Assembly (NCBI GenBank): GCA_029244985.1
Contig: JAQWQD010000017.1
Span: 1-64,000, forward strand
Reading direction: 5' to 3'
DNA length: 64,000 nt
From: Gammaproteobacteria bacterium
Lineage (GTDB): Bacteria > Pseudomonadota > Gammaproteobacteria > Pseudomonadales > Pseudohongiellaceae
The notes under the pieces were generated by a model, which was not told the origin of the DNA, did no database searches, and worked only from the letters and a program-made list of their open reading frames with translations. Below, one piece after another: positions 24,849-54,964 of the stretch (its first letter is position 1; every line of letters begins with the position of its first letter). Both the position numbers and the translations under genes were made by a program.

Positions 24849-26462
24849 ATGCAATCATATGACGCAATTGTTATTGGTGCTGGTCACAATGGTCTTGTGA
24901 CTGCGACATTTTTAGCAAAAGCAGGGCTCAAAGTTTTAGTAGTTGAGAAGAACGACCACATTGGCGGAGCGACTGTAAGCCGAGAGCTGCACCAGGATTG
25001 GAAATACTCTAACTGTTCTTATGTCTGCAGCTTATTTCGGCCCGAAATATATCAAGCTTTGGATTTAGGGCGTCATGGCCTTGAGGTGGTTCCACTTCAG
25101 GGCAGCGTTACTTTCAAGCAAGATGGAGATTATTTTGGTAGTTATCATCAATCTCCAGTAAGAAGAAGAGAAATTGAGCGACACTCAAAGCGAGATGCCG
25201 ATGCGTCAATTCGATTTGATGCCGATTTAATGAAATGGTGTCGACTAATTCGAAGTTTCTTGCTAACTGCTCCGCCAGATCCGGGATCATTAAAGATTCG
25301 GAACGTAATGGAATTTTCTTATCTACTCAAAAAATTTCATTCCCTAAGTGAAAGTCAAATTTACGAGTTCATTCGTTTCTTTACGATGTCCATAGCCGAG
25401 TACCTCGAGGAGTATTTCGAGAGCGATGTAATCCTCGCTCATTTTTCTGGTGGTAGCATTATAGGCACCGGGTTAGGTGTTTATTCTCCTGGAACTGCTT
25501 ATGTACTCTTGCATCACGCAATGGGTGACGTAGATGGTAATGTTGGATCTTGGGGGTTTGCACGTGGAGGGATGGGTGCCGTGTCGGCTGCTATCGCTTC
25601 TTCTTTTCAAGCCGAGGATGGGGAAATACGGACAGACGCAGAAGTGGGTCAGATACTGGTCAAGGGAGGTCGGGCAGTCGGAGTAGCCCTGAGTGGGGGC
25701 GAAGAAATATATGCAAATACCATTGTCTCAAATTTGGATGCCAAGCGAACTTTCCTCAAGATTATGGATCGTAATGATCTGCCAGAGCATGTTGTTCAGC
25801 GTGCAGAAAATTTTAAAATTCGCGGTTCTTCTGGCAAAGTAAATATTGCATTGGACGGATTACCGAATTTTCCTGCTCTTCCTCCGCGATCTCCTTTAAC
25901 TCTCGGCCATATTCATTTTACGGATACTTTAGAGCGTTTGGAGCGGGCCTATGATGACTGGAAAGATGATTGTTGGTCTAAAGACCCCTATGTGGACTTG
26001 GTGATTCCTTCACAGTATGACCCAACGCTCGCACCACCAGGCAAGCACATGATGTCTGTATTCGTTCAGTATTGTCCAGTAAAGCCAGAAGGCGGATGGA
26101 CGGATCAAAAAAAAGATGCATTTGGTGCCACTGTGATCAATCAAATTAGTGATTACAGTCCTAACTTTAAGGATCTCCTGCTTCATGCTGAAGTGCGAAC
26201 GCCTAAAGAAATAGAGGATGAGGTAGGCCTTACGGAAGGGAATATTTTTCAGGGTGAGCTCACCCTAGACCAATTGATGTTCAATCGCCCGTTTCCTGGA
26301 TATGCCCGTTATCGAGGCCCAGTCAAAGGTATGTACATGTGCAGCTCTTCGACGCATCCGGGCGGTGGAGTCATGGGAGCCCCAGGAACCAATTCGGCGC
26401 GGGAAATACTGACAGATTTAAAAAGAAGGGATACAACTCCTGAGGATTTTGGCGATGACTAA
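24849..26462 (+). CDS. PYROXD2/phytoene-desaturase-like FAD oxidoreductase, type A, cassette 1
   Basis: 537 residues from the ATG at 24849 (a TTG one codon earlier is less likely). An N-terminal dinucleotide fold has GAGHNG (10-15) and the ribose-binding E33. The body follows the CrtI/PYROXD2 pattern, with ATVSRELH, NCSYVCSLFRPEI, RGSSGKVNIALDGLP and the C-terminal FAD segment STHPGGGVMGAPG. The HGL and SLFRPEI stretches match animal PYROXD2 better than carotenoid desaturases. It shares type-A marks (EGNIFQGEL, FNRPFPGYA) with 31942 and 50573. The next gene starts inside its end, implying a coupled partner. Likely role: oxidase or dehydrogenase of a small amine; substrate unknown. Confidence 0.85.
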   Translation: MQSYDAIVIGAGHNGLVTATFLAKAGLKVLVVEKNDHIGGATVSRELHQDWKYSNCSYVCSLFRPEIYQALDLGRHGLEVVPLQGSVTFKQDGDYFGSYHQSPVRRREIERHSKRDADASIRFDADLMKWCRLIRSFLLTAPPDPGSLKIRNVMEFSYLLKKFHSLSESQIYEFIRFFTMSIAEYLEEYFESDVILAHFSGGSIIGTGLGVYSPGTAYVLLHHAMGDVDGNVGSWGFARGGMGAVSAAIASSFQAEDGEIRTDAEVGQILVKGGRAVGVALSGGEEIYANTIVSNLDAKRTFLKIMDRNDLPEHVVQRAENFKIRGSSGKVNIALDGLPNFPALPPRSPLTLGHIHFTDTLERLERAYDDWKDDCWSKDPYVDLVIPSQYDPTLAPPGKHMMSVFVQYCPVKPEGGWTDQKKDAFGATVINQISDYSPNFKDLLLHAEVRTPKEIEDEVGLTEGNIFQGELTLDQLMFNRPFPGYARYRGPVKGMYMCSSSTHPGGGVMGAPGTNSAREILTDLKRRDTTPEDFGDD

Positions 26463-28023
26463 ACCCTCGGAAAATTCAGTCATTATTATAGGGGCGGGTC
26501 ACAACGGACTTGTCTGTGCGATTTACCTTTCCATCGCAGGTTACAAGGTAAGAGTCCTGGAGGCTCAGGATATAGCTGGCGGTGGAGCCGTTACTTCGGA
26601 GTTTGCCGCAGGGTTCAAAATTTCAGGGTTAGCACATTTATTCCATGGGTTAGATCCTGAGATCCTTAAAGATATCGGAATGCAGTCTGCTGATTTTGAA
26701 TTAGGGCCCGAAATAAAAACAATTGCGTTGGCTGCAAATGGCAATCACCTTCTGATCGGAAAAGACTCCGTAACTGGTGCAGGCTTGTCTGAAGAAGATA
26801 AACAAGCCTATAAAGAATTCAAACAAGAGTATTACGACTTCGCTAAAGCTCTAAAGCCTCTTCTATTGAATAAGCCGCCTCGATTAAAGAATATGGACAA
26901 GGCGGACAAGTTCACATTCGCGAAAATGGGTTGGGGATTACGCTTCGGCTTAGGTGTGGATGCAATGCGCGAATTTCTCCGTGTTGGAGGAATCAATATT
27001 TACGATGTGTTGAACGAGAAAATAGAAAACTCTCACTTAAAAGGTGCGATTTCAGTTGATGCGGTAATGGGTCATCATATGGGACCACGTACACCAACAA
27101 CTGTTCTTACTTACCTGACAAGACTGAATGGGGAAGCTCAAGGAAATCTTTCGGCGCCCAAAAATGGTATGGGGCGCGTAACAGAATTACTAGTTAATTA
27201 CGCAGAGTCTAAAGGGGTAGAAATTCAATGCGGAGCTACTGTAAAGAAAATCCTTATTGATGAAGGAAAGGCGACAGGAGTGGAGCTTGTCAGTGGTGAG
27301 CAGTATAAGGCACCTCTAATAGTTTCAAATGCTGATGCAAAATCAACATTTCTTAAAATGATTGATGTCTGCGAGCTCGATGCTATGTTCGCCAAGCGAA
27401 TTAACACGACCCGAACTCACGGCAGCGTTGCAAAGTTTCACTTTGCTTTAGATGGCCTGCCAGAATTTGTTGGATTAGAGGCAAGTGATTTAGGTAATCG
27501 TATGTTAATCGCGCCAGATATGCGTTACGTCGAACACGCCTTCAATCATTCGAAATATAAAGAATTTTCTACTGAGCCTGTGATTGAGATCATTTTCCCT
27601 AGTGTACATGATGATTCTTTAGCGCCACCTGGGCGCCATGTGATGTCTGTTTTGGCGACATTCGCCCCCTATAATCTAAAAAATGGATGGGATGAACAAG
27701 AGAGGCGACAATTTACTAATGTAGTGCTTAAAAGTATTGATGAATATGCGCCAGGTATCACTTCTAAAATAATTGCTAGTGAATTGGTAACGCCAATAGA
27801 TATTGAAAATAAGTTTAAAATATCAGGAGGTCACTGGCATCATGGAGAAATGACTATCGATCAGTCATTTATGATGAGGCCAATACATGGGGCAGCACAA
27901 TACAACACTCCTATAGAGGGTCTGTTTTTGTGTGGCGCCGCAGCACACCCAGGTGGAGGCATTACAGGCATTCCTGGGCGTAACGCAGCAAAGCGTATTT
28001 CTTCTCTGGATCGGGCAGGATAA
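26455..28023 (+). CDS. PYROXD2/phytoene-desaturase-like FAD oxidoreductase, type B, cassette 1
   Basis: 522 residues from the ATG at 26455, overlapping the type-A gene by 8 bases. GAGHNG is at 13-18. Type-B marks are GGHWHHGEM, MMRPIHGAAQY and CGAAAHPGGGITGIPG near the C-terminus, where type A has EGNIFQGEL. The middle HGSVAKFHFALDGLPEF corresponds to type A's RGSSGKVNIALDGLP. The paired His (WHHG) is seen in all three type-B proteins and none of the type-A proteins, so the two subunits likely have different active sites or only one is catalytic. The overlap points to equal synthesis and a heteromer, which is inference. Confidence 0.85.
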   Translation: MTKPSENSVIIIGAGHNGLVCAIYLSIAGYKVRVLEAQDIAGGGAVTSEFAAGFKISGLAHLFHGLDPEILKDIGMQSADFELGPEIKTIALAANGNHLLIGKDSVTGAGLSEEDKQAYKEFKQEYYDFAKALKPLLLNKPPRLKNMDKADKFTFAKMGWGLRFGLGVDAMREFLRVGGINIYDVLNEKIENSHLKGAISVDAVMGHHMGPRTPTTVLTYLTRLNGEAQGNLSAPKNGMGRVTELLVNYAESKGVEIQCGATVKKILIDEGKATGVELVSGEQYKAPLIVSNADAKSTFLKMIDVCELDAMFAKRINTTRTHGSVAKFHFALDGLPEFVGLEASDLGNRMLIAPDMRYVEHAFNHSKYKEFSTEPVIEIIFPSVHDDSLAPPGRHVMSVLATFAPYNLKNGWDEQERRQFTNVVLKSIDEYAPGITSKIIASELVTPIDIENKFKISGGHWHHGEMTIDQSFMMRPIHGAAQYNTPIEGLFLCGAAAHPGGGITGIPGRNAAKRISSLDRAG

Positions 28024-28029
28024 ACATAA

Positions 28030-29250
28030 ATGCCATCTACAATAATTCAAGATATAAATCAGCACAATTTTCATGAGGTATTGAAACCAACTCCTTTTCA
28101 TCCTCGTGTAGATCATGATTGTCTGACTAAAAACTGGATGGATTGGAATGGTTATTTAACTGCACGAACTTATGACACATTAGCCGCCGAATATTTTGCA
28201 ATTCGTAGTTCGTGCAGTGTTATGGACTTAACCCCCATGGGGAAATATCGCATTAATGGGCCTGATGCGAATAAATTTCTAAATCGATTAGTTACCCGCG
28301 ACGTAAGTATGCTGCGCCCCCAACGCGTTAGCTATGTTGTGATGTGCAATGATGAGGGCAAGGTTTTAGATGATGCCACAATCTTTCATCTCAACGAAGG
28401 GGATTATCGACTTTGCTGTCAGCACCATCAATTGGATTGGCTTATGATCTCGTCGTTGGGCATGGATGTGTCCATAAAGGAAGAAACTCACGATATTGCC
28501 GCGCTCGCGGTTCAAGGCCCGACCTCCGCTTCAGCATTAAAATTAGCAGGAATTGATGAAATTGGACAATTGAAACCTTATGATATTTTACATACTCAGC
28601 TTCATGGTTTTGAAGTTATGGTATCAAGGACAGGTTACACTGGTGATCTAGGCTATGAGCTGTGGACTTCTCCGGATAATGCATTAAGCATGTGGGATGC
28701 AATTTTTGAAGTAAAGCAGAAAGGGTTTTATGATATTCGGACCATAGGATTGTCGGCGTTGGAGATGGTGCGTATCGAGGCGGGGTTTATTTTGCCGGGC
28801 GATGATTTCAACACTGCTGAAACTGCCATTCGAGCCGACCGAGTGCGGTCGCCGTATGAAGTTGGACTGGGATGGGTAGTTAATTTGGATAAGCCAAATT
28901 TTACGGGAAAGCGCGCATTGTTGGATGAGAAAAAGAAACCTATAAAAAGGCGATTACTTAGATTAGAAGTATCGGGAAATAAAGCGCCTCAAGATTCTTT
29001 CCTTTACGCGGGGAAGGGGGGTAAGCGAATTGGAACTATCATGACACAAATATGGTCTCCTATTCTTAAGGCTAATCTAGCAATGGCAGACGTAGAGTTT
29101 GCTGGCGGTAGTCAGCCCAGCGAAATTTGGGCTGAAATTTACTATCAGAAAGAACTAGAATGGCGTGTATCATGGGCAAAAGGCAAAGTGTGGAATAAAC
29201 CATTCTGGTCACACCCTAGGCGCTCTGCATCTCCTCCGGATAGTTACTAA
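28030..29250 (+). CDS. GcvT-like aminomethyltransferase, cassette 1
   Basis: 406 residues. Family marks are MDLTPMGKYRINGPDA (65-80), the folate-site Asp pair D114-D115 in GKVLDDATIF, SRTGYTGDLGYELW, and ALEMVRIEAGFILPG. GcvT-fold enzymes bind tetrahydrofolate and accept a C1 unit from an amine, thioether or sulfonium. AGGA 8 bases before the ATG. It follows the type-B flavoprotein by 6 bases and ends in the TAATG overlap with a membrane protein gene. The tail KPFWSHPRRSASPPDSY is shared with the cassette 2 protein. Inferred role: transfer of the C1 unit released by the flavoprotein pair. Confidence 0.88.
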   Translation: MPSTIIQDINQHNFHEVLKPTPFHPRVDHDCLTKNWMDWNGYLTARTYDTLAAEYFAIRSSCSVMDLTPMGKYRINGPDANKFLNRLVTRDVSMLRPQRVSYVVMCNDEGKVLDDATIFHLNEGDYRLCCQHHQLDWLMISSLGMDVSIKEETHDIAALAVQGPTSASALKLAGIDEIGQLKPYDILHTQLHGFEVMVSRTGYTGDLGYELWTSPDNALSMWDAIFEVKQKGFYDIRTIGLSALEMVRIEAGFILPGDDFNTAETAIRADRVRSPYEVGLGWVVNLDKPNFTGKRALLDEKKKPIKRRLLRLEVSGNKAPQDSFLYAGKGGKRIGTIMTQIWSPILKANLAMADVEFAGGSQPSEIWAEIYYQKELEWRVSWAKGKVWNKPFWSHPRRSASPPDSY

Positions 29251-30167
29251 TGACGTCAAGGTTGCAGCGCTTCAGAAATTCCGGTATCAATTTGACTCAG
29301 GCCGTCAAGTTCGTTGTCTATGTGTTACTGCTAATTAATTTTGCTTTCTACATTATTGAAGATTGGCAAATTGCACAGTTTACTCGCGCAAACGGTGGAA
29401 CTTTTCTGCAATGGACGAGCGCTTTTGCCACACCCATTGATGAGCTTGCCTGGTTCATTTTGTTGTTTTTGTTTGAACTCGAGACTTATGTTCTAGATGA
29501 TGCGACATTAACTCGAAGGCGTCTGATTTTAATGCATGGTGCCCGCTATGCTTGCTATGTATTTTTAGCCCACACGGTTTATGCATATAGTGCCGACATC
29601 GTCAAACTACGAAACGTAGAAGCTGTAGAAAATATTTCCAGTCTGTGCCAAATGGAAGGAGGAGAATCTTCATTTACCTCCAATTTAAATTATTCAGAAA
29701 TAACCATAGAAAATTGTGAAGAATTATCTTTTGCCAGTGAGTTCATCTATCTAGACCCTCCTGACTATCTTATTGTTACTGATGCGGAAGGCTTTGTGAT
29801 AGAGACAGAGTTAAGAATTGTTGATTTGGCTGAAGCGATAACTTGGTTACTTATTTTGTTCAGCATCGAAGCAGCAGTTATGTTGCAAGAAAGGTCGATT
29901 GGCATTTCTCCTAGTTCTGGGTTTTTGTCGTCATTAGGCTCAGTGGCATCTCTTAAACTACTTAATCGAGCCAAGGTAATTCTCTATTGTTTGCTATGGG
30001 TAGCAATCGCTTACTGGCTATTTCGCGGTCACTATGTGTGGGCTTGGGATGAGTTTGTTTGGATTGCTGGCTTCGTACTAATTGAGAATAATATTTCTGG
30101 GTGGCGAGAAGAAACAACTGAATTGGATTCCTTGAGTCAGGCGATCAAGGAAAACAACGCGCTCTAA
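29250..30167 (+). CDS. Multi-pass membrane protein of unknown function
   Basis: 305 residues, starting at the last base of the GcvT-like stop codon (TAATG). About five or six hydrophobic segments are seen near residues 17-36, 57-76, 95-113, 190-210, 246-262 and 268-285. Between segments 3 and 4 is a long polar loop with two Cys (SLCQMEGG, ENCEEL), perhaps a disulfide on the periplasmic side. It resembles no transporter I know. Its tight coupling to cassette 1 suggests a role in uptake or electron transfer for that system. Function unassigned. Confidence 0.72.
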   Translation: MTSRLQRFRNSGINLTQAVKFVVYVLLLINFAFYIIEDWQIAQFTRANGGTFLQWTSAFATPIDELAWFILLFLFELETYVLDDATLTRRRLILMHGARYACYVFLAHTVYAYSADIVKLRNVEAVENISSLCQMEGGESSFTSNLNYSEITIENCEELSFASEFIYLDPPDYLIVTDAEGFVIETELRIVDLAEAITWLLILFSIEAAVMLQERSIGISPSSGFLSSLGSVASLKLLNRAKVILYCLLWVAIAYWLFRGHYVWAWDEFVWIAGFVLIENNISGWREETTELDSLSQAIKENNAL

Positions 30168-30382: not shown

Positions 30383-31945
30383 ATGTCTAGTTACGACACC
30401 ATAATAATCGGCGCCGGTCATAACGGAATGGTGTGTGCTTGTTATTTGGCTCGCAGAGGACAAAAGGTATTGTTGCTTGAGGCAGCGAATGAAATTGGTG
30501 GTCTAGCCGCTAAGCGAGAATTTTTTCCAGAATTTCAAGTATCAGTAGCCCATTCAATCAGTCATTTCTCTGCCAAAGTTGCAAAAGAACTTAATCTAGA
30601 AAGTCATGGTTTCATTAACCCTTCTTGTTCCTTGCCTACTGTTGGGTTAAATCGAAATGGTGAGCACGTTGTATTGGCGCATGACGAAGGTGGTGCTGCA
30701 AGCTTAAGCGGTGTCAGTGAAAAAGATTTAGCCAGCTTTAAAAATTATCAGACTCTGATGTATCGATATGCTGCGATGTTGAAACCTTTTTGGGGAACAG
30801 TTCTACCCAGAATAGGTGTCAGCGGAATTTCAAAAGCAATGACTTATGCCAAGCTAGGCTTAAAACTGCGCTTGTTAGGTAAAAGTGATATGCGCGAATT
30901 TATGCGCATAGCCATGTTGCCAGCCCGCGACCTTATGGATGAGTATTTTGATAATGATTTGCTTAAGGCGTTACTGAGCTGGGATGCGTTGATTGGGTCA
31001 AAGATGGCGCCGCGCTCGCCAAATGGCCCAGTAGTAAGTTTGCTCTATCGAATGGGAGGTGATTTCGAAGGAGCACACTATTTGCCTGAAAATGGCATTG
31101 AAAGTTTGATTTATTCACTTCGCAGTGTTGCAGAAGCTTCAGGAGTAGAGACTCGTACGAATTTTCCGGTAGAGAAAATTTTGATTCAGCGCAATGAATC
31201 AGGGTTGAAAGTGGAAGGCGTCACAATGCCTGATGGAGAAATTATTACTGCGACTCGAGTGGTTTCTTCTGCGGATCCCCATCGAACGTTTATCGATCTG
31301 GTGGGAGTTGAGAATTTGGAGATTCAATTTGCTAATCGTATTCGCAGGCTACGGAGTGAGGGTTATGTTGCGAAATTACATCTAGCTTTGCATGGTGAGC
31401 CTAAATTTAATGGGTTGGCGGGTCCAGAGGGCCGCATGATTATTGCGCCGACTATGGACACCATCGAATTTGCCTACGACGATGCTAAGTATGGGGAGTT
31501 TTCACGGCAACCAGTTATGGAGGTAATAGTCCCTACGCGCTATCAATCTGAATTAGCCCCTCCTGGCAAGCATGTAATTTCTGCTCATGTTATGTACGTA
31601 CCGAAAATGCTCAAATCGAAATGGTCTGTCGACGCACGGGAAGAAATTAAAAATAAAACAATTGATTTGCTCGCTCAGTATTCGCCGGGACTAAAAAACC
31701 TTATCGCGCATGCAGAATTTTTAACTCCTGAAGATATAGAGAGTAATTTTCGAGTCACTGGGGGAAATTGGCATCACGCCGATCATGTTATCGATCAGAT
31801 GTTTATGATGCGACCAACCTATGAAGCTGCTCAATACTCGACACCAGTGCCTGGGCTCTTTCTTTGTGGCGCAGGTTGTCATCCAGGTGGAGATTTGATG
31901 GGGGCAGCCGGACATAATGCAGCGCACGAGATACTTAAGTCATGA
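30383..31945 (+). CDS. PYROXD2/phytoene-desaturase-like FAD oxidoreductase, type B, cassette 2
   Basis: 520 residues with GAGHNG at 10-15 and an acidic ribose contact in LLLEAANEIGG. It carries type-B marks: EGYVAKLHLALHGEPKF, GGNWHHADHVIDQ and CGAGCHPGGDLMGAAG. The last segment has D in place of the second Gly seen in the other five copies (HPGGG becomes HPGGD). It is the first gene of its operon, so the B gene precedes the A gene, opposite to cassettes 1 and 3. The stop overlaps the type-A start as ATGA. Substrate unknown. Confidence 0.84.
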   Translation: MSSYDTIIIGAGHNGMVCACYLARRGQKVLLLEAANEIGGLAAKREFFPEFQVSVAHSISHFSAKVAKELNLESHGFINPSCSLPTVGLNRNGEHVVLAHDEGGAASLSGVSEKDLASFKNYQTLMYRYAAMLKPFWGTVLPRIGVSGISKAMTYAKLGLKLRLLGKSDMREFMRIAMLPARDLMDEYFDNDLLKALLSWDALIGSKMAPRSPNGPVVSLLYRMGGDFEGAHYLPENGIESLIYSLRSVAEASGVETRTNFPVEKILIQRNESGLKVEGVTMPDGEIITATRVVSSADPHRTFIDLVGVENLEIQFANRIRRLRSEGYVAKLHLALHGEPKFNGLAGPEGRMIIAPTMDTIEFAYDDAKYGEFSRQPVMEVIVPTRYQSELAPPGKHVISAHVMYVPKMLKSKWSVDAREEIKNKTIDLLAQYSPGLKNLIAHAEFLTPEDIESNFRVTGGNWHHADHVIDQMFMMRPTYEAAQYSTPVPGLFLCGAGCHPGGDLMGAAGHNAAHEILKS

Positions 31946-33561
31946 ATCAGTATGACGCGATAGTAATTGGCGCGGGCCACAATGGATTGACTAATGCCGC
32001 TTATCTAGCCAAAGCTGGATTAGAAGTGTTAGTGGTTGAAAAAAATGATTATATCGGCGGGGCAGCGGTTTCTCGTGAACTTCATGAAGGTTGGATATAT
32101 TCCAGCTGTTCATACGTTTGCAGCATGATGCGACAGGCAATCCACCGCGATCTTAATCTTACCAAACATGGTTTGATCTTGGTTCCTTATTTAGGAAATG
32201 TAGCATTTGGGGATAATGGCGAAACTCTTGTTGGCTATACTGACGAGGAAGCGAATTACAATGCGCTACGTAAGATTTCGCCTCACGATGCGGATGCAAT
32301 GTTTCGATTGCACGCCGACTTGGCCCGCTATGCTCAGTTAATTCGCAAAACTCTTTTGAGAACACCTCCAGATCCGACTTCTTTTCGTCCTCGCGATGTT
32401 AATGAATTATTATGGTTTGCAAAACAATTTTGGGGTTTAGGAGAAAAAGAACTTTATGAGTACATTCGATTTTTTACGATGAGTGCAGCAGATTATCTTG
32501 AAGATTATTTGGAGAATGATCTCATTAAAGCAACTATGGCTAGTGCTGGAATTATCGGAACAGCACTAGGAGTTTATTCGCCGGGCTCTGCTTACATTCT
32601 ATTGCACCATGTAATGGGAGACGTTGACGGAAATATTGGTGCATGGGGTTTGGCTCGAGGTGGCATGGGTGCTATCTCCCAATCCCTTGCTGGTGCATTG
32701 CAGGAAAGCGGTGGTGAAATTCGCTTGAATGCAGGCGTGCGAAAGATCTTGGTTAAGAAACAAAAAGCAGTTGGGGTTGTGCTAGAGAATGGTGACGAAC
32801 TTTATGCCAATATTGTCGTATCTAATCTCGATGCTAAGCGCACGTTTACCCAGTGTATGGATGAAGATGATTTGCCGCCTGGGATTTTTAAGAAAGCGAA
32901 AAATTTTAAAATTCGAGGTTCATCGGGGAAAGTTAATATTGCTTTGTCTGGGTTGCCGAAATTTAACGGAGTCCCTAATAACCGATATGTGAATAGAGGA
33001 GGGCAGGCATTTGTAGGCTCACTGGAAACCATGGAGCGAGCCTATGACGATTGGAAACATGGATGCTGGTCGAAAGATCCGTTTATTGAATCGGTAATTC
33101 CTTCGGCCTGGGACCCAACGGTGGCCCCTCCAGGAAAGCACTGGATGTCTAATTTTGTTCAATATTGTCCAGCTGAATTAGCTGATGGACCTTGGACGCC
33201 AGAGAAAAGAAATACATTTGGACAAATAATAGTTGATAAAATCGAACGCTACAGTCCCGGATTTAGAGAACTTATCGTACACATGGAGGTGCGTACTCCT
33301 CATGAAATTGAGGCAGAGGTGGGTTTAACTGAAGGAAATATATTCCAGGGTGAATTGACAATAGATCAATTGCTATTTAATCGGCCATTTCCAGGTTATG
33401 CGCAGTATCGAATGCCTGTAAAAAATATGTATATGTGTGGATCTTCCACTCATCCCGGCGGGGGTGTGTCTTCGGCCTGTGGCGCAAATGCCGCGAGAGA
33501 AATACTCATGGATTTGAGGCTAGGTAATACTGTACCCGATGACGATTTTTACGACGAGTAA
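31942..33561 (+). CDS. PYROXD2/phytoene-desaturase-like FAD oxidoreductase, type A, cassette 2
   Basis: 539 residues; starts within the ATGA overlap with the type-B gene. GAGHNG is at 10-15. Type-A marks are SSCSYVCSMMRQAI, RGSSGKVNIALSGLP, EGNIFQGELTIDQ, FNRPFPGYAQY and STHPGGGVSSACG. Where types A1 and A3 read RPEI, this has RQAI, and the last motif has SSACG for MGAPG or MAAPG, so it is the most divergent of the three type-A proteins and may act on another substrate. Followed by the GcvT-like gene after 38 bases. Confidence 0.84.
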   Translation: MNQYDAIVIGAGHNGLTNAAYLAKAGLEVLVVEKNDYIGGAAVSRELHEGWIYSSCSYVCSMMRQAIHRDLNLTKHGLILVPYLGNVAFGDNGETLVGYTDEEANYNALRKISPHDADAMFRLHADLARYAQLIRKTLLRTPPDPTSFRPRDVNELLWFAKQFWGLGEKELYEYIRFFTMSAADYLEDYLENDLIKATMASAGIIGTALGVYSPGSAYILLHHVMGDVDGNIGAWGLARGGMGAISQSLAGALQESGGEIRLNAGVRKILVKKQKAVGVVLENGDELYANIVVSNLDAKRTFTQCMDEDDLPPGIFKKAKNFKIRGSSGKVNIALSGLPKFNGVPNNRYVNRGGQAFVGSLETMERAYDDWKHGCWSKDPFIESVIPSAWDPTVAPPGKHWMSNFVQYCPAELADGPWTPEKRNTFGQIIVDKIERYSPGFRELIVHMEVRTPHEIEAEVGLTEGNIFQGELTIDQLLFNRPFPGYAQYRMPVKNMYMCGSSTHPGGGVSSACGANAAREILMDLRLGNTVPDDDFYDE

Positions 33562-33599
33562 GTTAAGCGAGATTTGAGACTGAGACTAGTTTAATAAAA

Positions 33600-34820: not shown

Positions 34821-34857
34821 GGCGAATAGATAGAATTTTTAGAATTGGGGAATAAGA

Positions 34858-46708: not shown

Positions 46709-46783
46709 TCGAAGTGCTTGGCGTTGAACTAACTGCATGAAGGCGTATATTCCAGATTAGTTATTTTTAGGGCAGGTAGTGAG

Positions 46784-47347: not shown

Positions 47348-47367
47348 GCTCGAAAAATGCAGGAATT

Positions 47368-47393
47368 AAATTTATAGCGAATGCTATAAATTT
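47368..47393. terminator. Hairpin between convergent genes
   Basis: AAATTTATAGC (47368-47378) and GCTATAAATTT (47383-47393) form a perfect 11-bp stem with loop GAAT. It sits at the meeting point of the hydroxylase-like and amidinohydrolase-like genes and overlaps the latter's stop codon. It could stop transcription from either side, although T-runs after it are weak. Confidence 0.55.
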
Positions 47394-48262
47394 CGCAATA
47401 CTGGACGGGTCAAACAGGTAGGGCCTCCACAACCTTTCAAGCTTATTTCTTCCCCTTTATACACAGACACTTCGGCGCCCGCATCTTCTAATCGTTTTCT
47501 TGTTATAGGGTTCCCTTCAAGCATGATGCACTGTCTAGGTGCAACCGCCAATACATTACAAGCCATGGAATTAAACTCTTCTATCGGTACCTCGACCAGG
47601 CTAAAGCCTAAATCTAAAAGGCGATTCCGAAAAGGAACCGTTAACAGGGGTGAGTAAACTAGGCAAAGATCTTCATCTATTGGGCTCAAGCAGGACATTA
47701 AATGAAAAACATCTCCAGCTCCTTGCCAGTGAGGAAGAGGCGCAACAACTAGCTCATCTACGCAGTTACCTAGATAGTCTCGTAGCTGCGCGATCCCTGA
47801 TGCATTAGTTCGATATCCTTCCGCAATTGCCAAAGTCCGTTCATTGAGCCATGTAACATCACCGCCTTCTACTTGACCATCTCCTTCAATCGCACCAAGA
47901 ATGGGTACATCCATCGTTGCGAAGACGGCTGAGTTGGCTTGTGGTTCCGCTTGCCTTTCTTTTTTACCCATATTGCACAAGATTGCTCCTTTGTCGCAAA
48001 TTAGAGAAGTATCACGTACATAAATTGAGTCTAAGCCTGTGGCTTGATTAGGAGAAGAGTAGAAAATTTCGATATCGAATTGAGTAAGTAACTCGACAAA
48101 TATTTCGTATTCAGCTGCTGCTTTGGCAAAATTGGGCTTATCAATGTAGTTAAGAGATTGCCATTGTTGGTCTATAGAATCTTGATTTTCAAAAGCATCA
48201 TGTACCCCTTTTAATATTAAAGATCGAATCTTACCGACCTCGGATTGCATACCTGTTTTCAT
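47384..48262 (-). CDS. Amidinotransferase-superfamily hydrolase (DDAH/arginine deiminase-like)
   Basis: 292 residues of the guanidine-modifying enzyme superfamily. Active-site positions are visible: R83-D84 in IYVRDTS, E132-GG-D135 in VEGGDV, H187 in GDVFHLMSC and nucleophile C283 in GGPTCLTRP. The length and single-domain layout fit dimethylarginine dimethylaminohydrolase (DDAH) better than full arginine deiminase (about 400 residues). DDAH splits N-methylated arginine into citrulline and methylamines. It follows an AdiC-like permease by 18 bases and belongs to the TetR-led operon. A guanidino substrate is well supported; methylarginine in particular is inference. Confidence 0.85.
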   Translation of the reverse strand: MKTGMQSEVGKIRSLILKGVHDAFENQDSIDQQWQSLNYIDKPNFAKAAAEYEIFVELLTQFDIEIFYSSPNQATGLDSIYVRDTSLICDKGAILCNMGKKERQAEPQANSAVFATMDVPILGAIEGDGQVEGGDVTWLNERTLAIAEGYRTNASGIAQLRDYLGNCVDELVVAPLPHWQGAGDVFHLMSCLSPIDEDLCLVYSPLLTVPFRNRLLDLGFSLVEVPIEEFNSMACNVLAVAPRQCIMLEGNPITRKRLEDAGAEVSVYKGEEISLKGCGGPTCLTRPVLRNL

Positions 48263-48280
48263 AGACTTTTCTCTATATTT

Positions 48281-49606
48281 TTAATTTTTTGACTTAATGA
48301 TTAATACGTACACTGGAACCCCTGCTAATAAAAGTAATACTCCCCAAATGATAGTCTCTGAACCGGTGCCAATTATTGCCCAGAAAGCAAATAACATAGC
48401 AATCACGGCAATGGTCTTTTCTATAAAAGAGAGAGGTTGTTGTGAGCGCAGGGAAATAACAATGCGCGCCATTGCACAAATCAAATAAGGGAGGAGAGCT
48501 GCCAAAGTTGCCAGTAGAATGACAAATGTAAATTGATCTACGAGACTTTCAGTTGCATTCATTAACACTAAGACAGTTACAAACAAAGAGGAAATAATAA
48601 GTCCTTTTGCCGGAGTCCCAAACCTCGACCGTTCGGCAAATATCTTAGGAAATATTCCGTCATTGGCTGCAGCCATGGGTATTTGTCCAGAACACAGAGT
48701 CCAGCCATTCAGTGCGCCAAAACATGAGACAATTGCTCCTATGCCGATCAATTGGTAACCGGTTTGACCCCATAGAATTTCAGCGGCATCGGCAAATGGG
48801 GCATTGGAGAGCGCGAGTTGTTCTGGAGCAATTAAACCGATAACGGCGATTGTGCTGGGTATATAGACAGCAGCGGCCAATAATGTGCCGGCAATGGCTG
48901 CGCGAGATACGTTGCGTTCAGCATTTCTGACTTCGCCAGCCGGAATGTTTGCACTTTCCATTCCTAAAAATGCCCACATAGTCAGCGCAGCTGTAGCAGT
49001 AAGGGCGCCGAAATTAGATTGTTCGCTTAAATTAAGTGGCGTGAAATGACCTGGGTTAAGGGCAAATAATCCAAACATAGCGATTGCTAAAAGCGGGAAA
49101 ATTTTGAGGATTGTTGTTGCAAGTTGCAGTCTTCCTGCTTGCCGGATTCCACGAACATTCACGACTAAAAGAAGCCATACGATAAGTACTGTGGTGGTTG
49201 AGCTCAGTATTGGCTGGTTGGCAAGCTCTGACCAGAACACTGAAAGATAACTAACGAGGGCGATAGCTATAGCAGCGTTAGTTGCAATTATCGAAACCCA
49301 GTAGCCCCAAGCGACTAAAAACCCAGGGAGATCACCAAAACCTGTCCTAGTATAGAGATAAGGTCCTCCAGAACCGCGTACTTGTCGCGCTAGTCCCGCA
49401 AAAACAAGCGCGATGCAGATTGAACCGCACGCCGAAACTACCCAGCCCAACACGCTTATACCACCGAAAGCTGCCAAGGAGGCTGGCAAAAGAAAGATTC
49501 CAGAACCAATCATGTTCCCAGTTACCATGGCAGTTGCCGTCCAGAATCCTAATGGCTTGTTTTCGTCCGTTATTTCGTTATTGTTTTGGGCTTGTTGTGT
49601 TGCCAA
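48281..49606 (-). CDS. APC-superfamily amino acid permease, AdiC/PotE-like
   Basis: 441 residues with 12 hydrophobic segments. The N-terminal substrate loop GNMIGSGIFLLPASLAAFGG is of the AdiC/CadB/PotE type, transporters that exchange arginine/agmatine, lysine/cadaverine or ornithine/putrescine. Between a TetR regulator and the amidinohydrolase-like gene on one strand, it most likely brings in a cationic guanidino compound or polyamine. The first ~18 residues are polar and cytoplasmic. Confidence 0.9.
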   Translation of the reverse strand: MATQQAQNNNEITDENKPLGFWTATAMVTGNMIGSGIFLLPASLAAFGGISVLGWVVSACGSICIALVFAGLARQVRGSGGPYLYTRTGFGDLPGFLVAWGYWVSIIATNAAIAIALVSYLSVFWSELANQPILSSTTTVLIVWLLLVVNVRGIRQAGRLQLATTILKIFPLLAIAMFGLFALNPGHFTPLNLSEQSNFGALTATAALTMWAFLGMESANIPAGEVRNAERNVSRAAIAGTLLAAAVYIPSTIAVIGLIAPEQLALSNAPFADAAEILWGQTGYQLIGIGAIVSCFGALNGWTLCSGQIPMAAANDGIFPKIFAERSRFGTPAKGLIISSLFVTVLVLMNATESLVDQFTFVILLATLAALLPYLICAMARIVISLRSQQPLSFIEKTIAVIAMLFAFWAIIGTGSETIIWGVLLLLAGVPVYVLIIKSKN

Positions 49607-49682
49607 ATTCTACTCCACTATTTGTTTATACTGGCAACTGAGAAATTTTGCACATCAATCAGCTTTATTGGAAATAAGAGAA

Positions 49683-50306
49683 TTAATCTAGCAAACCACT
49701 AACATATTGCCAGGCAGCATTTCGGGCAGCATTTACAGTAGAGCGCTGGGGTGAAAGCAGAATGTCTAGCCATAGTCCATCCGTCAATGCAGAATAGGCG
49801 CTAGTAATTAATTCAACATCATTTTTCCGTTTAGTCTTTTCTGACAATAAAGAAGAGAATAGTTTGCAAATTTCATGATTTATCTCATCGTCATGTTGAG
49901 CACAAATTTTTTGATAGATGGGTCGCGCCTTGACTTCCCCAAGAAACGCGAACCATACAGCCAATTTGTTTCTATTAATAATTCTTGGACTGAAATCGTA
50001 ATCAATAATAGCTTTGAGTTTTTCCAAGTCTTGCATGTTATTACTGGCAAAAATTTGATCAAAACCTTCTTTATATTCATCTGCAATGAAGCGTAATGTT
50101 TCAATTAGCAGTAGCTCTTTAGTTTTAAAATGTAGATTAACAATGCCAACGCTTAATTCCGCTTCATTGGTAATGTCGGCCATGGTCGTGGCTGCCAGAC
50201 CTTTTTTTGCAATACATTTTATTGTTGCCTTGATAAGCTGATTACGTCTTTCCGCTTTCGGCAGAGCGCGACGCTTCCGAGTAGTGTTTTGAGAGTGCTT
50301 CGGCAT
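49683..50306 (-). CDS. TetR-family (BetI-like) transcriptional regulator
   Basis: 207 residues from the ATG at 50306 with AAAGG upstream (the frame extends to a TTG at 50330). The N-terminal HTH reads KCIAKKGLAATTMADITNEAELSVGIVNLHFKTKELLL, and the C-terminal ligand domain ends ALTDGLWLDILLSP, as in BetI. It leads the permease and amidinohydrolase genes and diverges from the long cassette 3 operon. The 18-bp palindrome 100 bases upstream of its start is its probable operator. Expected to repress both units until a substrate or intermediate binds. Confidence 0.93.
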   Translation of the reverse strand: MPKHSQNTTRKRRALPKAERRNQLIKATIKCIAKKGLAATTMADITNEAELSVGIVNLHFKTKELLLIETLRFIADEYKEGFDQIFASNNMQDLEKLKAIIDYDFSPRIINRNKLAVWFAFLGEVKARPIYQKICAQHDDEINHEICKLFSSLLSEKTKRKNDVELITSAYSALTDGLWLDILLSPQRSTVNAARNAAWQYVSGLLD

Positions 50307-50406
50307 TATATTGGTGCCTTTATTCCACAAGAGTGGCTATTCTGTTTGACAGAGATCTCGATGATTGCAATTACACTTTAACCCATTGATTAAATTTTAA
50401 CAAATG

Positions 50407-50424
50407 AATGAATGATCATTCATT
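50407..50424. promoter_or_regulatory. Perfect 18-bp palindrome, probable TetR operator
   Basis: AATGAATGATCATTCATT is a perfect 18-bp palindrome in the divergent region between the TetR gene and cassette 3. The form TGAATGA-TCATTCA is typical of TetR/AcrR-family binding sites. It lies about 100 bases from the TetR start and 149 bases from the first cassette gene, so one site could serve both promoters. Confidence 0.82.
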
Positions 50425-50572
50425 ATGGACATAATAGATAAATTCTGGCACGATATTCTTTTCAAGAGTATGCATTTAATTATGAGTTCAGCGACAGGTC
50501 ATAGTAATAGTTTGATGGTGCCTTAACGCTAATCAGAAACAATGCTTTAATAAGCAATGAACGATATTTGGT

Positions 50573-52192
50573 ATGAATAAACGGTACGATGCAATAGTTA
50601 TCGGTGCTGGGCATAACGGCTTGACGAATGCCGCTTATCTGGCTAAATCCGGACTCGACGTTCTGGTTTTGGAAAAAAATTCCTACATAGGTGGGGCCAC
50701 AGTAAGCCGTGAATTACACCAAGATTGGCTCTACTCCAACTGCTCTTATGTATGCAGTCTACTTCGCCCAGAGATTACTCGAGATTTAGAGCTTCCCCGC
50801 CATGGCTTGCAGGTCGTACCTTACGGTGGCAGTGTTAGCTTTTGTAGTAATGGCGATTATTTCGGGGACTACCCAGACCATGAGCGGCAGTACCGAGAAA
50901 TAGCTCGACATTCGATCAGAGATGCTAACGCTTACGAACGCTACGAAGCTGACGTAATGAAACAAACGCGCCTGATCCGGCCCTTCTTGTTGAGAACGCC
51001 CCCAGATCCTGCATCGTTAAAGCCCCGCGATCTCAAGGAAATGAAATATCTCATGGATGCCTTTGCTGATCTTGGCGAGGAAGGTTTAGCGGATACATTG
51101 CGCTTTTGGACCATGAGTATAGCTGATTACTTGAACGAGTATTTCGAGACTGATGTTATCAAAGCTCATTTGGCTGGAAGTGGAATTATTGGTACAGCCT
51201 TGGGTGTGTATTCTCCGGGGACTGCCTACGTTTTGTTGCATCATTATATGGGTGATGTAGACGGGACAGTTGGCGCATGGGGTTTCGCTCGAGGTGGCAT
51301 GGGTGCTGTTTCTGATGCACTGGCTTCATCGTTCAGATCCTTTGGAGGGGAGATTCGTGTTGACTCGGAAGTAGAGCAGATTATCGTTAAGGGAAATAAA
51401 GCGGTAGGAGTGGCTTTGAGCAGCGGAGAAGAAATTGCAGCAAACATAGTGGTTTCGAATCTCGATCCAAAACGTACATTTCTCAATATTATGGATGAAA
51501 AAGATTTGCCATCTGATGTTGTATCTAAGGCGAGAAATTTTAAGATTCGTGGTTCTTCAGGAAAATTGAATATTGCTTTAGATGGATTGCCAACTTTCAA
51601 CGGCATTCCCAAAAATAGTCCTTTAATGCAGACTGATATGCATATGCTTGATTCTCTCGAGCGTATGGAGCGTGCGTATGATGATTGGAAAGATGGAACA
51701 TGGTCAGCAGACCCCTATGTCGATATGTTAATTCCAAGTCAGGTTGATCCAACCATGGCCCCGCCAGGCAAGCATATGATGACAGTCTTTGTGCAATATG
51801 CTCCGCCACAAATTAATGGTAGAGATTGGACAGATGAGGACCGTGACGCATTTGGAAAAACTGTGATCGATCAAATCGCTAATTATAGTCCTGATTTTAA
51901 AGATTTGATTTTGCATTGCGAAGTGCGCACTCCGAGAGAAATTGAAAACGAAGTGGGCTTAACCGAGGGCAATATCTTCATGGGAGAACTGACCTTTGAT
52001 CAGCTTCTGTTTAACCGGCCATTTCCCGGTTATGCACAATATCGAGGCCCAATAAGCGGAATGTATATGTGCAGCTCGGGTACACACCCAGGAGGAGGTG
52101 TAATGGCTGCCCCAGGTGCGAATGCCGCACGGGAAATATTGGCGGATTTGAAAAGACCAAACTTGGTGCCGGAGGCTTATGCCGATGACTAA
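50573..52192 (+). CDS. PYROXD2/phytoene-desaturase-like FAD oxidoreductase, type A, cassette 3
   Basis: 539 residues with GAGHNG at 11-16. Type-A marks: NCSYVCSLLRPEI, RGSSGKLNIALDGLP, EGNIFMGELTFDQ, FNRPFPGYAQY and GTHPGGGVMAAPG. It is very close to the cassette 1 type-A protein in all motif regions. First gene of a long operon that runs to the agmatinase-family gene at 62648, under the divergent TetR gene. Overlaps the type-B gene by 8 bases, as in cassette 1. Likely oxidises an N-substituted amine; substrate not proven. Confidence 0.86.
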   Translation: MNKRYDAIVIGAGHNGLTNAAYLAKSGLDVLVLEKNSYIGGATVSRELHQDWLYSNCSYVCSLLRPEITRDLELPRHGLQVVPYGGSVSFCSNGDYFGDYPDHERQYREIARHSIRDANAYERYEADVMKQTRLIRPFLLRTPPDPASLKPRDLKEMKYLMDAFADLGEEGLADTLRFWTMSIADYLNEYFETDVIKAHLAGSGIIGTALGVYSPGTAYVLLHHYMGDVDGTVGAWGFARGGMGAVSDALASSFRSFGGEIRVDSEVEQIIVKGNKAVGVALSSGEEIAANIVVSNLDPKRTFLNIMDEKDLPSDVVSKARNFKIRGSSGKLNIALDGLPTFNGIPKNSPLMQTDMHMLDSLERMERAYDDWKDGTWSADPYVDMLIPSQVDPTMAPPGKHMMTVFVQYAPPQINGRDWTDEDRDAFGKTVIDQIANYSPDFKDLILHCEVRTPREIENEVGLTEGNIFMGELTFDQLLFNRPFPGYAQYRGPISGMYMCSSGTHPGGGVMAAPGANAAREILADLKRPNLVPEAYADD

Positions 52193-53786
52193 TGCTCGTT
52201 ATGACGTAGTTATAGTTGGGGCTGGGCACAATGGCTTGATATGTGCGGCCTACCTTGCCAAGGCGGGGCGAAAAGTCTTGGTGTTAGAACGAAATGAGCA
52301 AGTGGGAGGCGCAGCAGTAACGCACGAATTCTCCGATGGATTTAGAGTATCGAGTTGTGCGCAATGGCTATATCAATTTAACCCCAACATTCGAGCTGAA
52401 CTTAAGCTTGATCAGTATGGGTACGAATTAGCCGCAGAAAATTTAAGTACCATTGCGCTATCTGCAGATAGCAATCATCTGACATTGTCGAGTGCAGAGC
52501 TTAATGGAGCGAGTGTTACTGAGTCTGATAAAAAAGCTTATCAACTTTTTATAAAACAGATGCTCAAATTCAGTGGCATATTAGCTAAGGCTAGCGAGCG
52601 TCGCATACCAAAACTGTTGGAAGCGAATTGGGGGGATCGGTTTGCACTCTTTAAACTTGGCTTGGAGATGAAGCTCCTTGGCAAAGAGGATATGCAAGAT
52701 CTTTTAAGAATCGCTCTTATTAATATTTATGATGTTCTGCAGGAAAACTTCGATAATGATTTGCTAAAAGCGGCTTTAAGTTTAGATGCTACGCTCGGAA
52801 CTCATATGGGTCCTCGCTCTCCGAACACGGTGTTCAGTTTTTTGCATCGCAGGCTTGGAGAAGTGTTTGGGTTTAATGGGGTGTCAGTAGTTAAAGGAGG
52901 TATGAGCACTCTCTCTCAAGCGCTCGCCAACGCAGCAACGGCCAATGGTGTTGAAATAAGAACTGCTATGCCGGTTAGCCGAATCAATTCAACAGCGGAT
53001 GAAGTTACAGGTGTAACTCTAGCTAACGGCGAGGTTGTTGAAGCTTCAACGGTGGTTTCAAATGCTGATCCAAAAACAACTTTTAAAAGCCTGCTTGGTT
53101 TTCAGAAATTGGAAACAGGTATTATCCGGCGTGTCAGCAATATTCGCATGCAAGGCAATGTCGCAAAACTTCATCTTGCATTGGACTCTTTGCCACAGTT
53201 TGACGGACTTGATGAAAACCAAAGTGGCCAAAGATTAATTATCGTTTCCACCATGGATGCAATGGAGCGTGCATTCAATTCAGCTAAATATGGTGAATAT
53301 TCAGCGCAGCCGGTAATGGATATTTCTATCCCTACTTTGCATGATAAAACTTTGGCTCCAGAAGGGAAACATGTGCTTTCGGCTCTTGTGCAATACGCGC
53401 CCTATAAACTGGCTCAGGATTGGGGATCAGTTAAAGAGGATTACGCGCAACTATTAGTTGAGAGGATCGATGAATTTGCGCCTGGTATAGAAGAACAAAT
53501 TCTTAGCTGGGAGTTACTTACGCCGGTAGATTTGGAGCGAGAGTTCCATTTAACGGGTGGCCATTGGCATCATGGAGAAATCAGTTTAGACCAAATTATG
53601 ATGACGCGACCTTTCCCGGGGGCAACTCAATACGCGATGCCTTTAACGGGGTTGTATCTTTGCGGAGCTGGCGCTCATCCTGGTGGCGGGGTGATGGGAT
53701 TGGCAGGGAAAAATTCAGCTCAAGAAATACTAAGAAGCAATAGAAGCAAAACGAATCTCGCTGGGAAAAAGGAGAATGTTGCATGA
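52185..53786 (+). CDS. PYROXD2/phytoene-desaturase-like FAD oxidoreductase, type B, cassette 3
   Basis: 533 residues from the ATG at 52185; GGAGG (52171-52175) stands 9 bases before it, while an earlier ATG at 52179 is only 3 bases from that site. GAGHNG is at 12-17. Type-B marks: QGNVAKLHLALDSLPQF, GGHWHHGEISLDQ, MTRPFPGATQY and CGAGAHPGGGVMGLAG. A basic, Asn/Lys-rich tail of about 18 residues follows the last FAD motif and is missing in the other type-B proteins. Its stop overlaps the GcvT-like start as ATGA. Confidence 0.85.
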   Translation: MTNARYDVVIVGAGHNGLICAAYLAKAGRKVLVLERNEQVGGAAVTHEFSDGFRVSSCAQWLYQFNPNIRAELKLDQYGYELAAENLSTIALSADSNHLTLSSAELNGASVTESDKKAYQLFIKQMLKFSGILAKASERRIPKLLEANWGDRFALFKLGLEMKLLGKEDMQDLLRIALINIYDVLQENFDNDLLKAALSLDATLGTHMGPRSPNTVFSFLHRRLGEVFGFNGVSVVKGGMSTLSQALANAATANGVEIRTAMPVSRINSTADEVTGVTLANGEVVEASTVVSNADPKTTFKSLLGFQKLETGIIRRVSNIRMQGNVAKLHLALDSLPQFDGLDENQSGQRLIIVSTMDAMERAFNSAKYGEYSAQPVMDISIPTLHDKTLAPEGKHVLSALVQYAPYKLAQDWGSVKEDYAQLLVERIDEFAPGIEEQILSWELLTPVDLEREFHLTGGHWHHGEISLDQIMMTRPFPGATQYAMPLTGLYLCGAGAHPGGGVMGLAGKNSAQEILRSNRSKTNLAGKKENVA

Positions 53787-54964
53787 GATCTCATGACGAA
53801 ACCATGATGCTGCAAACGCCTTTTCACTCAAGAGTGGCAAAGGCTTGTGAATTAAATCAATGGGATGAATGGAAAGGCTATACCACGCCGGCAGCTTATA
53901 CGGAAGTTGAACAGGAGTACTTTGCGGTTCGAAACAGCACCGGTGTCTTTGATCTATCTCCGATGACAAAGTACCGTATTACCGGAGCAGACGCAGAACT
54001 TTATCTAAACAAAGTAATGACACGAGATGTGCGTAAACTAAACCCCGATAGAGTGGGTTATACAATATGGTGTAATGATGCTGGTCAAGTAATGGATGAC
54101 GGCACTTTATTTAATTTTGGTGAGAATAATTATCGGCTTTGCAGTTATACGCGAGTGATGGATTGGTTGCAGTGGTCTGCAATGGGCTTCGATGTTGAAA
54201 TAATAGATGAAACGGCAGATTTTGGTGCTTTAGCTGTTCAAGGTCCTACTTCTTGCGCTGTTTTAAAAGCAATGGGATTTAAAGGAATAGAAAAACTTAA
54301 ACCCTTTGGTATAAGCCATTTCCCATTCGAAGACGCTGAGGTGATGATTAGCCGTACAGGGTTTACCGGCGATTTAGGATATGAGTTATGGGTTGAGCCC
54401 CCAAAAGCCATAACCCTCTGGGATCGACTCTTTGATGCCGGTAGTAATCTAGGCATTCGCGCAATAGGCGGTAATGCTTTAGAAATGGTGAGGATAGAAG
54501 CTGGTTTTTTGCAGGCAGGAGTGGATTTCGTGCCAGCTGAAGAGACGGTCCGGATTGGCAGGTCTCGTTCTCCTTTTGAACTGGGATTGGGTTGGTTGGT
54601 TGATTTTGACAAGGGGGTTTTCAATGGGAGACAAGCCTTACTAAAAGAAAAACGTGAAGGTTCGCGTTATGCCTTTGTTTTCTTAGATGTTGAGGGAAAT
54701 AAACCAGCAGAACATTCATTTATTCTAAAGGGAAATAAGGAAATTGGGACAGTGACTTCTGCTGCATGGTGTCCAACCGCGAAATCGAACATAGCTTTCG
54801 CCCAAATTGAATCTAAATACGCAAATAGTGGAGAAAACTTGACTGCTGAGATTTACTATCAGACGGAGCTTAAATGGACCCGTCTCTTAGCAAAGTGTCA
54901 CGTGATTGATTCGCCAGTATTTTCGTCACCTAAACGTAGGCAAACGCCAGCGCCAGACTTCTAA
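53783..54964 (+). CDS. GcvT-like aminomethyltransferase, cassette 3
   Basis: 393 residues, starting within the ATGA overlap. DLSPMTKYRITGAD (57-70), the folate-site pair D105-D106 in GQVMDDGTLF, SRTGFTGDLGYELW and ALEMVRIEAGFLQAG identify the family. The C-terminus ends in the basic, Pro-rich form SSPKRRQTPAPDF, related to the tails of cassette 1 and 2 proteins. Direct translational coupling to the flavoprotein pair is the tightest of the three cassettes and supports action on one pathway step. Confidence 0.88.
   Translation: MRSHDETMMLQTPFHSRVAKACELNQWDEWKGYTTPAAYTEVEQEYFAVRNSTGVFDLSPMTKYRITGADAELYLNKVMTRDVRKLNPDRVGYTIWCNDAGQVMDDGTLFNFGENNYRLCSYTRVMDWLQWSAMGFDVEIIDETADFGALAVQGPTSCAVLKAMGFKGIEKLKPFGISHFPFEDAEVMISRTGFTGDLGYELWVEPPKAITLWDRLFDAGSNLGIRAIGGNALEMVRIEAGFLQAGVDFVPAEETVRIGRSRSPFELGLGWLVDFDKGVFNGRQALLKEKREGSRYAFVFLDVEGNKPAEHSFILKGNKEIGTVTSAAWCPTAKSNIAFAQIESKYANSGENLTAEIYYQTELKWTRLLAKCHVIDSPVFSSPKRRQTPAPDF

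Follow-up and report, generated by a model that had tools for sequence, protein, structure and literature searches.

The window analysed here, i.e., the whole stretch of 64 kb that forms positions 1 to 64,000 of contig JAQWQD010000017.1 of a Gammaproteobacteria bacterium, contains three gene cassettes, each composed of one A-type flavoprotein, one B-type flavoprotein and one GcvT-like protein (T). This A-B-T unit is real and conserved, and it is probably an uncharacterised enzyme type which strips methyl groups from nitrogen compounds. It appears fairly probable that each cassette encodes one flavin-dependent oxidative N-demethylase, which would pass the one-carbon (C1) unit to folate and act on methylated polyamines or omega-amino acids. 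Four observations fit a flavin N-demethylase that passes its C1 product to T: (i) the pairing of A and T is near-exclusive; (ii) the genes are tightly packed; (iii) A and B have a lysine column; (iv) the neighbouring genes are of amine-handling types.

Organization of the cassettes

All three cassettes are on the + strand. Cassettes 1 (24849-29250) and 3 (50573-54964) are ordered A-B-T, cassette 2 (30383-34820) B-A-T.

24849..26462, + strand: A1, A-type flavoprotein, cassette 1; PF01593; open reading frame (ORF) from TTG 24846, ATG at 24849
26449..28023, + strand: B1, B-type flavoprotein, cassette 1; start inside the end of A1; further ATG at 26455
28030..29250, + strand: T1, GcvT-like, cassette 1; PF01571, E 4.7e-57; Asp pair kept
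30383..31945, + strand: B2, B-type flavoprotein, cassette 2, precedes A2; PF01593
31942..33561, + strand: A2, A-type flavoprotein, cassette 2; PF01593
33600..34820, + strand: T2, GcvT-like, cassette 2; PF01571, E 3.5e-56
50573..52192, + strand: A3, A-type flavoprotein, cassette 3; PF01593; lysine K331
52179..53786, + strand: B3, B-type flavoprotein, cassette 3; PF01593; lysine K330, in the same column as K331 of A3
53783..54964, + strand: T3, GcvT-like, cassette 3; PF01571, E 3.8e-59

The nine ORFs are all open at these coordinates. The two flavoprotein genes overlap in each of the three cassettes, by the tail GATGACTAA for A1/B1 and A3/B3 and at ATGA for B2/A2. B3 and T3 also overlap at ATGA; T1 and T2 begin 6 and 38 bases, respectively, past the preceding gene. 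The original prediction, made from the letters of this DNA, was of three cassettes of two overlapping flavoprotein genes plus a GcvT-like protein with its Asp pair, and it is confirmed by the ORFs, the Pfam matches, the overlaps and the residues.

The flavoproteins have 520-539 residues and the T proteins 393-406. Pairwise identity is 59-69% among A1-A3, 41-43% among B1-B3, 31-35% between A and B and 43-47% among T1-T3. The genome contains six A/B-type genes (44-row A+B model, E ≤1e-10), all within the window. The closest named relative is OM182 bacterium MED-G28 (L001), 100% identical over A3 among the best 80 of 330 relatives.

Conservation of the A-B-T unit

The scan with the A-type alignment gives at least 79 loci from these best 80 of 330 relatives. 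The adjacency count considers the A genes above 600 bits (n = 85): lower-scoring A-like genes (e.g., L051:10543) are left out, and near-duplicates are included (L001; L005 and L006, from one assembly). Of these, 63 have ≥4.2 kb of sequence after the gene; for 61 of the 63, B and T are localized in the same orientation at a distance of up to 4.5 kb, which is far more than expected by chance. The remaining 22 are at contig ends, 11 with B and T and 11 with B only. Conserved adjacency in other genomes had been proposed as a check of the original prediction, which thus strongly survives it.

The co-occurrence of A and T leads to the same picture. In Gammaproteobacteria the same 4 of 274 genomes carry A (E <1e-200) and T (1e-80), and in Pseudomonadota A (1e-150) and T (1e-80) mark one identical set of 11 genomes among 398, the genome of the window being counted in both sets. 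In the other 10 genomes of the Pseudomonadota set T is localized 1.5-1.9 kb past A, i.e., with room for a B gene; B is found in G586, the sole one checked for it in that set, and also in G120, G155, G167 and G671. The 7 plasmid records with A (≥60% identity) are the same 7 as those with T (1e-80), and T is found in none of the 15 plasmid records with more distant A relatives (20 of 22 A rows listed). T is likewise absent near the A relative in 12 of 12 genomes whose sole A relative is a distant one (A at E ≤1e-60, GcvT-like match at 1e-20), some of these genes being near contig ends. At the thresholds used, T is not found without A, and A is almost never found without T. This tight pairing predicts one shared reaction, which is directly testable.

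The unit is present in marine Gammaproteobacteria, rhizobia and Rhodobacterales; the record titles of the loci name Halieaceae, Woeseiaceae, Porticoccaceae, Rhizobium, Shinella, Hoeflea, Ruegeria and Shimia. Annotated records label A and B «NAD(P)/FAD-dependent oxidoreductase» (twice) and T «aminomethyltransferase family protein». No description of the unit is found among the titles and abstract openings listed in searches of the open-access PubMed Central (PMC) literature.

Two side observations concern A-like genes. The Sphingobium Tom-series plasmid records H11-H19 contain A-like flavoproteins of about 38% identity, and the T search gives no match there. In the cassette-bearing genome G335, one more A-like gene (379 bits) is found in a control stretch (L132), where B and T have no match.

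Properties of the A and B flavoproteins

The six A and B proteins all pass the gathering score of PF01593 (Amino_oxidase), with 49-79 bits vs. 19.8, and the best stretch goes from residue 15-20 to residue 322-518. The best stretch of PF01266 (DAO) is confined to 36-52 residues at the N-terminus and does not span the protein; a second, unplaced stretch is present in B2 and B3. The claim that the flavoproteins belong to a class other than DAO is thus upheld. They had also been called «CrtI-like», which is right by fold and by NCBIfam: the nearest NCBIfam model is CrtO, below its cut-off (228-294 bits vs. 1000). The AlphaFold2 models of A3 and B3 have a predicted local distance difference test (pLDDT) of 90.0 and 88.3, respectively. 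After the carotenoid desaturase 4rep, which is the nearest solved fold, amine oxidases and other desaturases rank alike for these models, with a TM-score of about 0.5-0.6.

Lys occupies the lysine column in 78 of the 79 rows of A and in 67 of the 75 rows of B; the others have Arg. In a structure-profile alignment this lysine aligns with a Lys of the amine oxidase 8eej (the stretch is weak, 13 bits); the column is Val in the phytoene desaturase 4dgk and Ala in 4rep. We take a lysine near flavin N5 to be a feature of amine oxidases of the PF01593 class, that of A and B being seen as an alignment column only. The lysine and the gene context speak for amine chemistry in A and B.

The sole exception among the A rows, L051:10543, is of the stand-alone type and has Arg, as do 6 of 7 further stand-alone proteins. 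Lys vs. Arg was considered as a strict marker of T-linked flavoproteins and is weakened by the exceptions. A and B have each their own histidines: His223-His224 is found in 79 of 79 A rows and is missing from the B proteins of the window; His464 (75 of 75 B rows) and His465 (73 of 75) are missing from its A proteins.

Properties of the GcvT-like proteins

T1-T3 keep the Asp pair of the folate site. Asp105, Asp106, Glu201 (the Glu of GYE), Arg237 and Glu239 are invariant in 65 of 65 T rows, including a divergent fourth GcvT-like protein of the window (T4), and the motif is DDG in 62 rows and DDA or DDS in 3. The second Asp is found in every GcvT-family row compared, DmdA included. At the first position, GcvT, the trimethylamine N-oxide (TMAO) demethylase (Tdm; model TDM) and SoxA have Asp; DmdA has Asn, the DAO-GcvT fusions have Ala or Gly, and the T of L107 has Glu. 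The idea that the Asp pair proves oxidative transfer is thus rejected, since only the first Asp varies.

T1-T3 miss the GcvT equivalog cut-off (TIGR00528; 150-177 bits vs. 235.85) and that of DmdA (NF009133; 124-142 bits vs. 410). They cover only about positions 382-732 of the 763 of the TMAO demethylase model (240-258 bits vs. a cut-off of 1100), its DUF1989-type N-terminal part being absent. Their scores are higher with the TDM and GcvT models than with the DmdA model. Compared as profiles with solved structures, T1-T3 are closest to the C-terminal domain of TMAO demethylase (E 1e-65), with E from 2e-38 to 5e-28 for the chains of dimethylglycine dehydrogenase (DMGDH) and sarcosine oxidase. 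Genome-wide, GCV_T has its best match outside the window, on a separate contig (C47).

15105..16325, + strand: T4, divergent fourth GcvT-like protein, without A/B-type partner; beside a Rieske gene (13708-14865, − strand)

T4 and this Rieske gene are divergently oriented. A relative of T4 (L056:872-2080) is localized just upstream of the cassettes of L056.

Evolutionary history

A tree of 167 sequences separates three clades: A (81 sequences, support 0.996), B (78, support 1.0) and the stand-alone relatives (8, support 0.836). A1, A2 and A3 cluster each with orthologues of other genomes, and B and T form matching groups; the A1 clade also contains L043, L056, L038, L046, L063, L010 and L042. 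The agreement is imperfect: B2 clusters with alphaproteobacterial B genes (support 0.876), and L078:10001 has its A on the A2 side (weak, 0.265) and its B on the B1 side. The B-A-T order of cassette 2 is also found in L043, L056, L067 and L078, and an A-B-T cassette is upstream of the B-A-T one in L043, L056 and L078. The orthologue groups, the recurring B-A-T order and the tandem layout thus indicate old, distinct units. On these sequence groups, the three cassettes are old paralogues, not recent duplicates.

Neighbouring genes

The neighbours of 40 loci of at least 19 kb were compared with 20 control stretches of 20 kb from the cassette-bearing genomes G335, G155 and G586, at 60 bits. PotG, PotH and PotI are all present in 23 of 40 loci vs. 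1 of 20 controls. The other counts are: Rieske oxygenase, 24/40 vs. 0/20; class III aminotransferase, 30/40 vs. 2/20; TetR, 29/40 vs. 1/20; glutamine-synthetase-like, 9/40 vs. 0/20; DAO-type oxidase, 10/40 vs. 1/20; aldehyde dehydrogenase, 8/40 vs. 1/20. The picture is the same at 100 bits (PotG+H+I 21 vs. 0, Rieske 23 vs. 0, class III aminotransferase 30 vs. 2). It must be noted that the presence of any Pot part is a poor marker (26/40 vs. 7/20, due to generic ATP-binding cassette (ABC) ATPases); the three-part criterion was used instead. The binding protein of one importer resembles PotF (E 4e-91), and annotated records contain ring-hydroxylating oxygenase and ABC importer genes close to the cassette. 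TetR is on the − strand, at most about 2.2 kb upstream of A and divergent from it, in 28 of the 40 long loci.

In the window, the following genes surround cassette 3 or separate cassettes 1 and 2:

29250..30167, + strand: ORF between cassettes 1 and 2; start overlaps the stop of T1
49683..50330, − strand: TetR-like regulator divergent from cassette 3; a similar arrangement recurs
55097..56476, + strand: glutamine-synthetase-like, downstream of cassette 3; TIGR00653 E 1.7e-67 and NF045547 E 3.1e-66, both below cut-off
56860..58125, + strand: Rieske oxygenase alpha subunit, GbcA-like; NF058607 E 1.6e-81, below cut-off
58130..59410, + strand: DAO-family oxidase, pipecolate-oxidase-like; NF050086 E 1.2e-53, below cut-off
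59414..60148, + strand: class I glutamine amidotransferase; PF00117 E 3e-17
60179..61609, + strand: class III aminotransferase; NF005447, 613 bits vs. a cut-off of 618

For the product of 55097..56476, the models of GlnA and of gamma-glutamylputrescine synthetase score alike. An agmatinase scoring over its cut-off is also found downstream of cassette 3. The ORF 29250..30167 has no Pfam match at E 0.01 and looks, by eye, like a membrane protein. L043 and L056 each have a relative of it between their two cassettes, and L041, L004, L046 and L078 have one in another position; a role as partner or regulator of the cassette is possible.

Other neighbours are less general. Next to cassette 3 (47384-49606) are an arginine-deiminase/dimethylargininase-like gene and an arginine/agmatine-antiporter-like permease gene; among the loci the pair is found in L001 only (the same organism or nearly so), L019 having a weak permease match (52 bits). 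The segments 18988-24593 and 46784-47347 contain a tetratricopeptide-repeat sulfotransferase, an ORF without family (21018-21932), a TonB receptor and an Asp/Arg-hydroxylase-like ORF, and relatives of several of these genes recur together near cassettes in L004, L008, L013 and L016. In L127 (G671), at 4578-10645, the genes directly after A-B-T are a second GcvT-like one, which resembles DmdA, and one that resembles CoA ligases. In L126 (plasmid of Fuscovulum ytuae), the genes after the cassette are two for ring-hydroxylating oxygenases, those of a polyamine-type importer and one with the annotation dimethylsulfoniopropionate-lyase family.

Proposed function

We infer a complex, its reaction, the folate transfer, the substrate and the electron acceptor. 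A and B, which are paralogous, amine-oxidase-like and encoded by overlapping genes, would act together, probably as a heteromer. They would oxidise an N-methyl group to the iminium, and T would load the C1 unit onto tetrahydrofolate (THF), giving 5,10-methylene-THF with no release of formaldehyde. The three cassettes probably have different substrates. With regard to the neighbours, the candidates are probably mono- or dimethylated polyamines or omega-amino acids: the Rieske oxygenase would take the first methyl off a quaternary amine, the cassettes would remove the next ones and the aminotransferase would handle the freed primary amine. The substrate cannot be deduced from a single neighbour, and substrates of the beta-alanine-betaine, valerobetaine-like or dimethylarginine type (MMSDH, acyl-CoA and DDAH-like genes) were considered as candidates. 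The long-chain polyamines of silica-forming algae vary in methylation, according to PMC12206195. As a suggestion, such N-methylated polyamines are one candidate substrate.

Several observations weigh against an N-demethylase of this kind. (i) The proximity of A3 and B3 to 4rep (TM-score 0.77 and 0.74, respectively, over the query) speaks against calling A and B simply amine oxidases on grounds of descent. (ii) Arg replaces the lysine in 8 of 75 B rows, and the stand-alone relative L128 has Lys at this column. (iii) Two A genes, L037 and the second A of L032, are without B and T, and no A-T or B-T fusion ORF is found in 89 loci. (iv) Four of the 40 long loci (L005, L041, L047 and L063) have no Rieske, Pot or class III aminotransferase gene in the available stretch, and the enrichment of neighbours is partly built in, because the neighbour models come from cassette loci and the controls from three genomes. 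(v) In the 65 T rows, the column of GcvT Arg223 is Leu (61), Thr (3) or Tyr (1) and that of Tyr101 is Phe (63) or Tyr (2), Arg223 (E. coli numbering) being set at the GARD arginine, i.e., 222 in the genome's own GcvT. T is thus without two folate contacts of GcvT, as is TMAO demethylase, and folate use is the weakest step.

This last point is the basis of a rather unlikely alternative, in which A and B oxidise the amine and T, folate-independent, has a structural role or handles formaldehyde in another manner, like the C-terminal domain of Tdm, its nearest solved relative. SoxA, the DAO-GcvT fusions and DmdA are families of folate users. In the same alignment they have also lost both residues, so the loss is indecisive on folate use; moreover, every T row keeps the Asp and the Glu of the site. 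Arg223 and Tyr101 of E. coli GcvT are THF contacts and both are missing in Tdm, a loss which T shares; folate use by Tdm is judged probably vestigial, yet THF slightly lowers the release of formaldehyde (PMC12560246).

It is also unlikely that T demethylates non-oxidatively like DmdA, yielding 5-methyl-THF, and that the oxidation by A and B comes afterwards, on the demethylated amine or on the carbon backbone, in the manner of polyamine oxidases. T adjoins DmdA-like sequences in a single tree (with uncertain rooting) and polyamine-type importers are nearby. However, the motif of T is DDG (62/65) vs. NDP in 4 DmdA rows, T1-T3 score lower with the DmdA model than with those of TDM and GcvT, and the co-inheritance and tight packing of A, B and T suit one shared step. 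A carotenoid role was raised by the fold and NCBIfam matches: A and B would be desaturases or ketolases of carotenoids or other isoprenoids, close to CrtO and 4rep, and the GcvT neighbour would be incidental. It was set aside on the lysine, on the scores far from the CrtO cut-off and on phytoene synthase, for which no SQS_PSY match is found in the genome (completeness 95.7%) vs. matches of the same model in 7 of 14 control genomes. Because of the lysine and the undetected phytoene synthase, to which the near-exclusive pairing with T is added, this role is very improbable.

The oxidative N-demethylase is retained as the best reading. Its boldest form, i.e., a new heteromeric class of flavoenzyme in which two non-identical amine oxidases of CrtI fold and a free GcvT-type folate transferase demethylate methylated polyamines (e.g., of algal silica), is tentative and rather doubtful.

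Significance

Methylated amines are an important share of marine dissolved organic nitrogen (PMC13390433). If the proposal is true, a second flavoprotein class is joined to a C1 acceptor of GcvT fold, beside the DAO class. Human PYROXD2 is a disease protein of unclear function (PMC8777681), and its locus is associated with N2-acetyl-N6,N6-dimethyllysine (PMC13352909). If the PYROXD2 and A/B families are close, this association fits amine chemistry; should PYROXD2 be a member of the same group of flavoproteins, the bacterial proteins would be model enzymes and would offer a biochemical route to a human orphan protein.

Comparison with known systems

The stand-alone A-like flavoproteins have 31-41% identity to A3 (8 compared) and form a separate clade; T is not adjacent to them (12 genomes) and 7 of 8 have Arg at the lysine column. 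CrtI/CrtO desaturases and ketolases have the same overall fold as A and B, but two solved ones have Val or Ala at the lysine column, and the A/B scores are far under the family cut-offs. To our knowledge, CrtI/CrtO proteins are never paired with GcvT. Flavin monoamine and polyamine oxidases (MAO, putrescine oxidase, NicA2) belong to PF01593 like A and B, and one of them has the aligned lysine; they are more distant overall (TM-score about 0.5-0.6), and we know of no pairing of MAO-type oxidases with GcvT.

TMAO demethylase is not known to use a flavin. It has in common with T the DDG motif and the substitutions at Arg223 and Tyr101, and its C-terminal domain is the nearest solved relative of T. 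Its N-terminal domains are metal-binding and of DUF1989 type (PMC12560246), whereas T consists of GCV_T alone.

Dimethylglycine dehydrogenase/oxidase and heterotetrameric sarcosine oxidase likewise couple the oxidation of amines by a flavin to a protein of GcvT fold with the folate Asp. Their flavoprotein is of the DAO family, whereas the cassettes contain two PF01593/CrtI-like flavoproteins; moreover, flavin and GcvT parts are fused in one chain (though not in every member), whereas T is a separate protein. The cassettes are thus outside the DAO-GcvT family, because their flavoproteins are of another class and unfused, and most likely they work like the DAO-GcvT demethylases.

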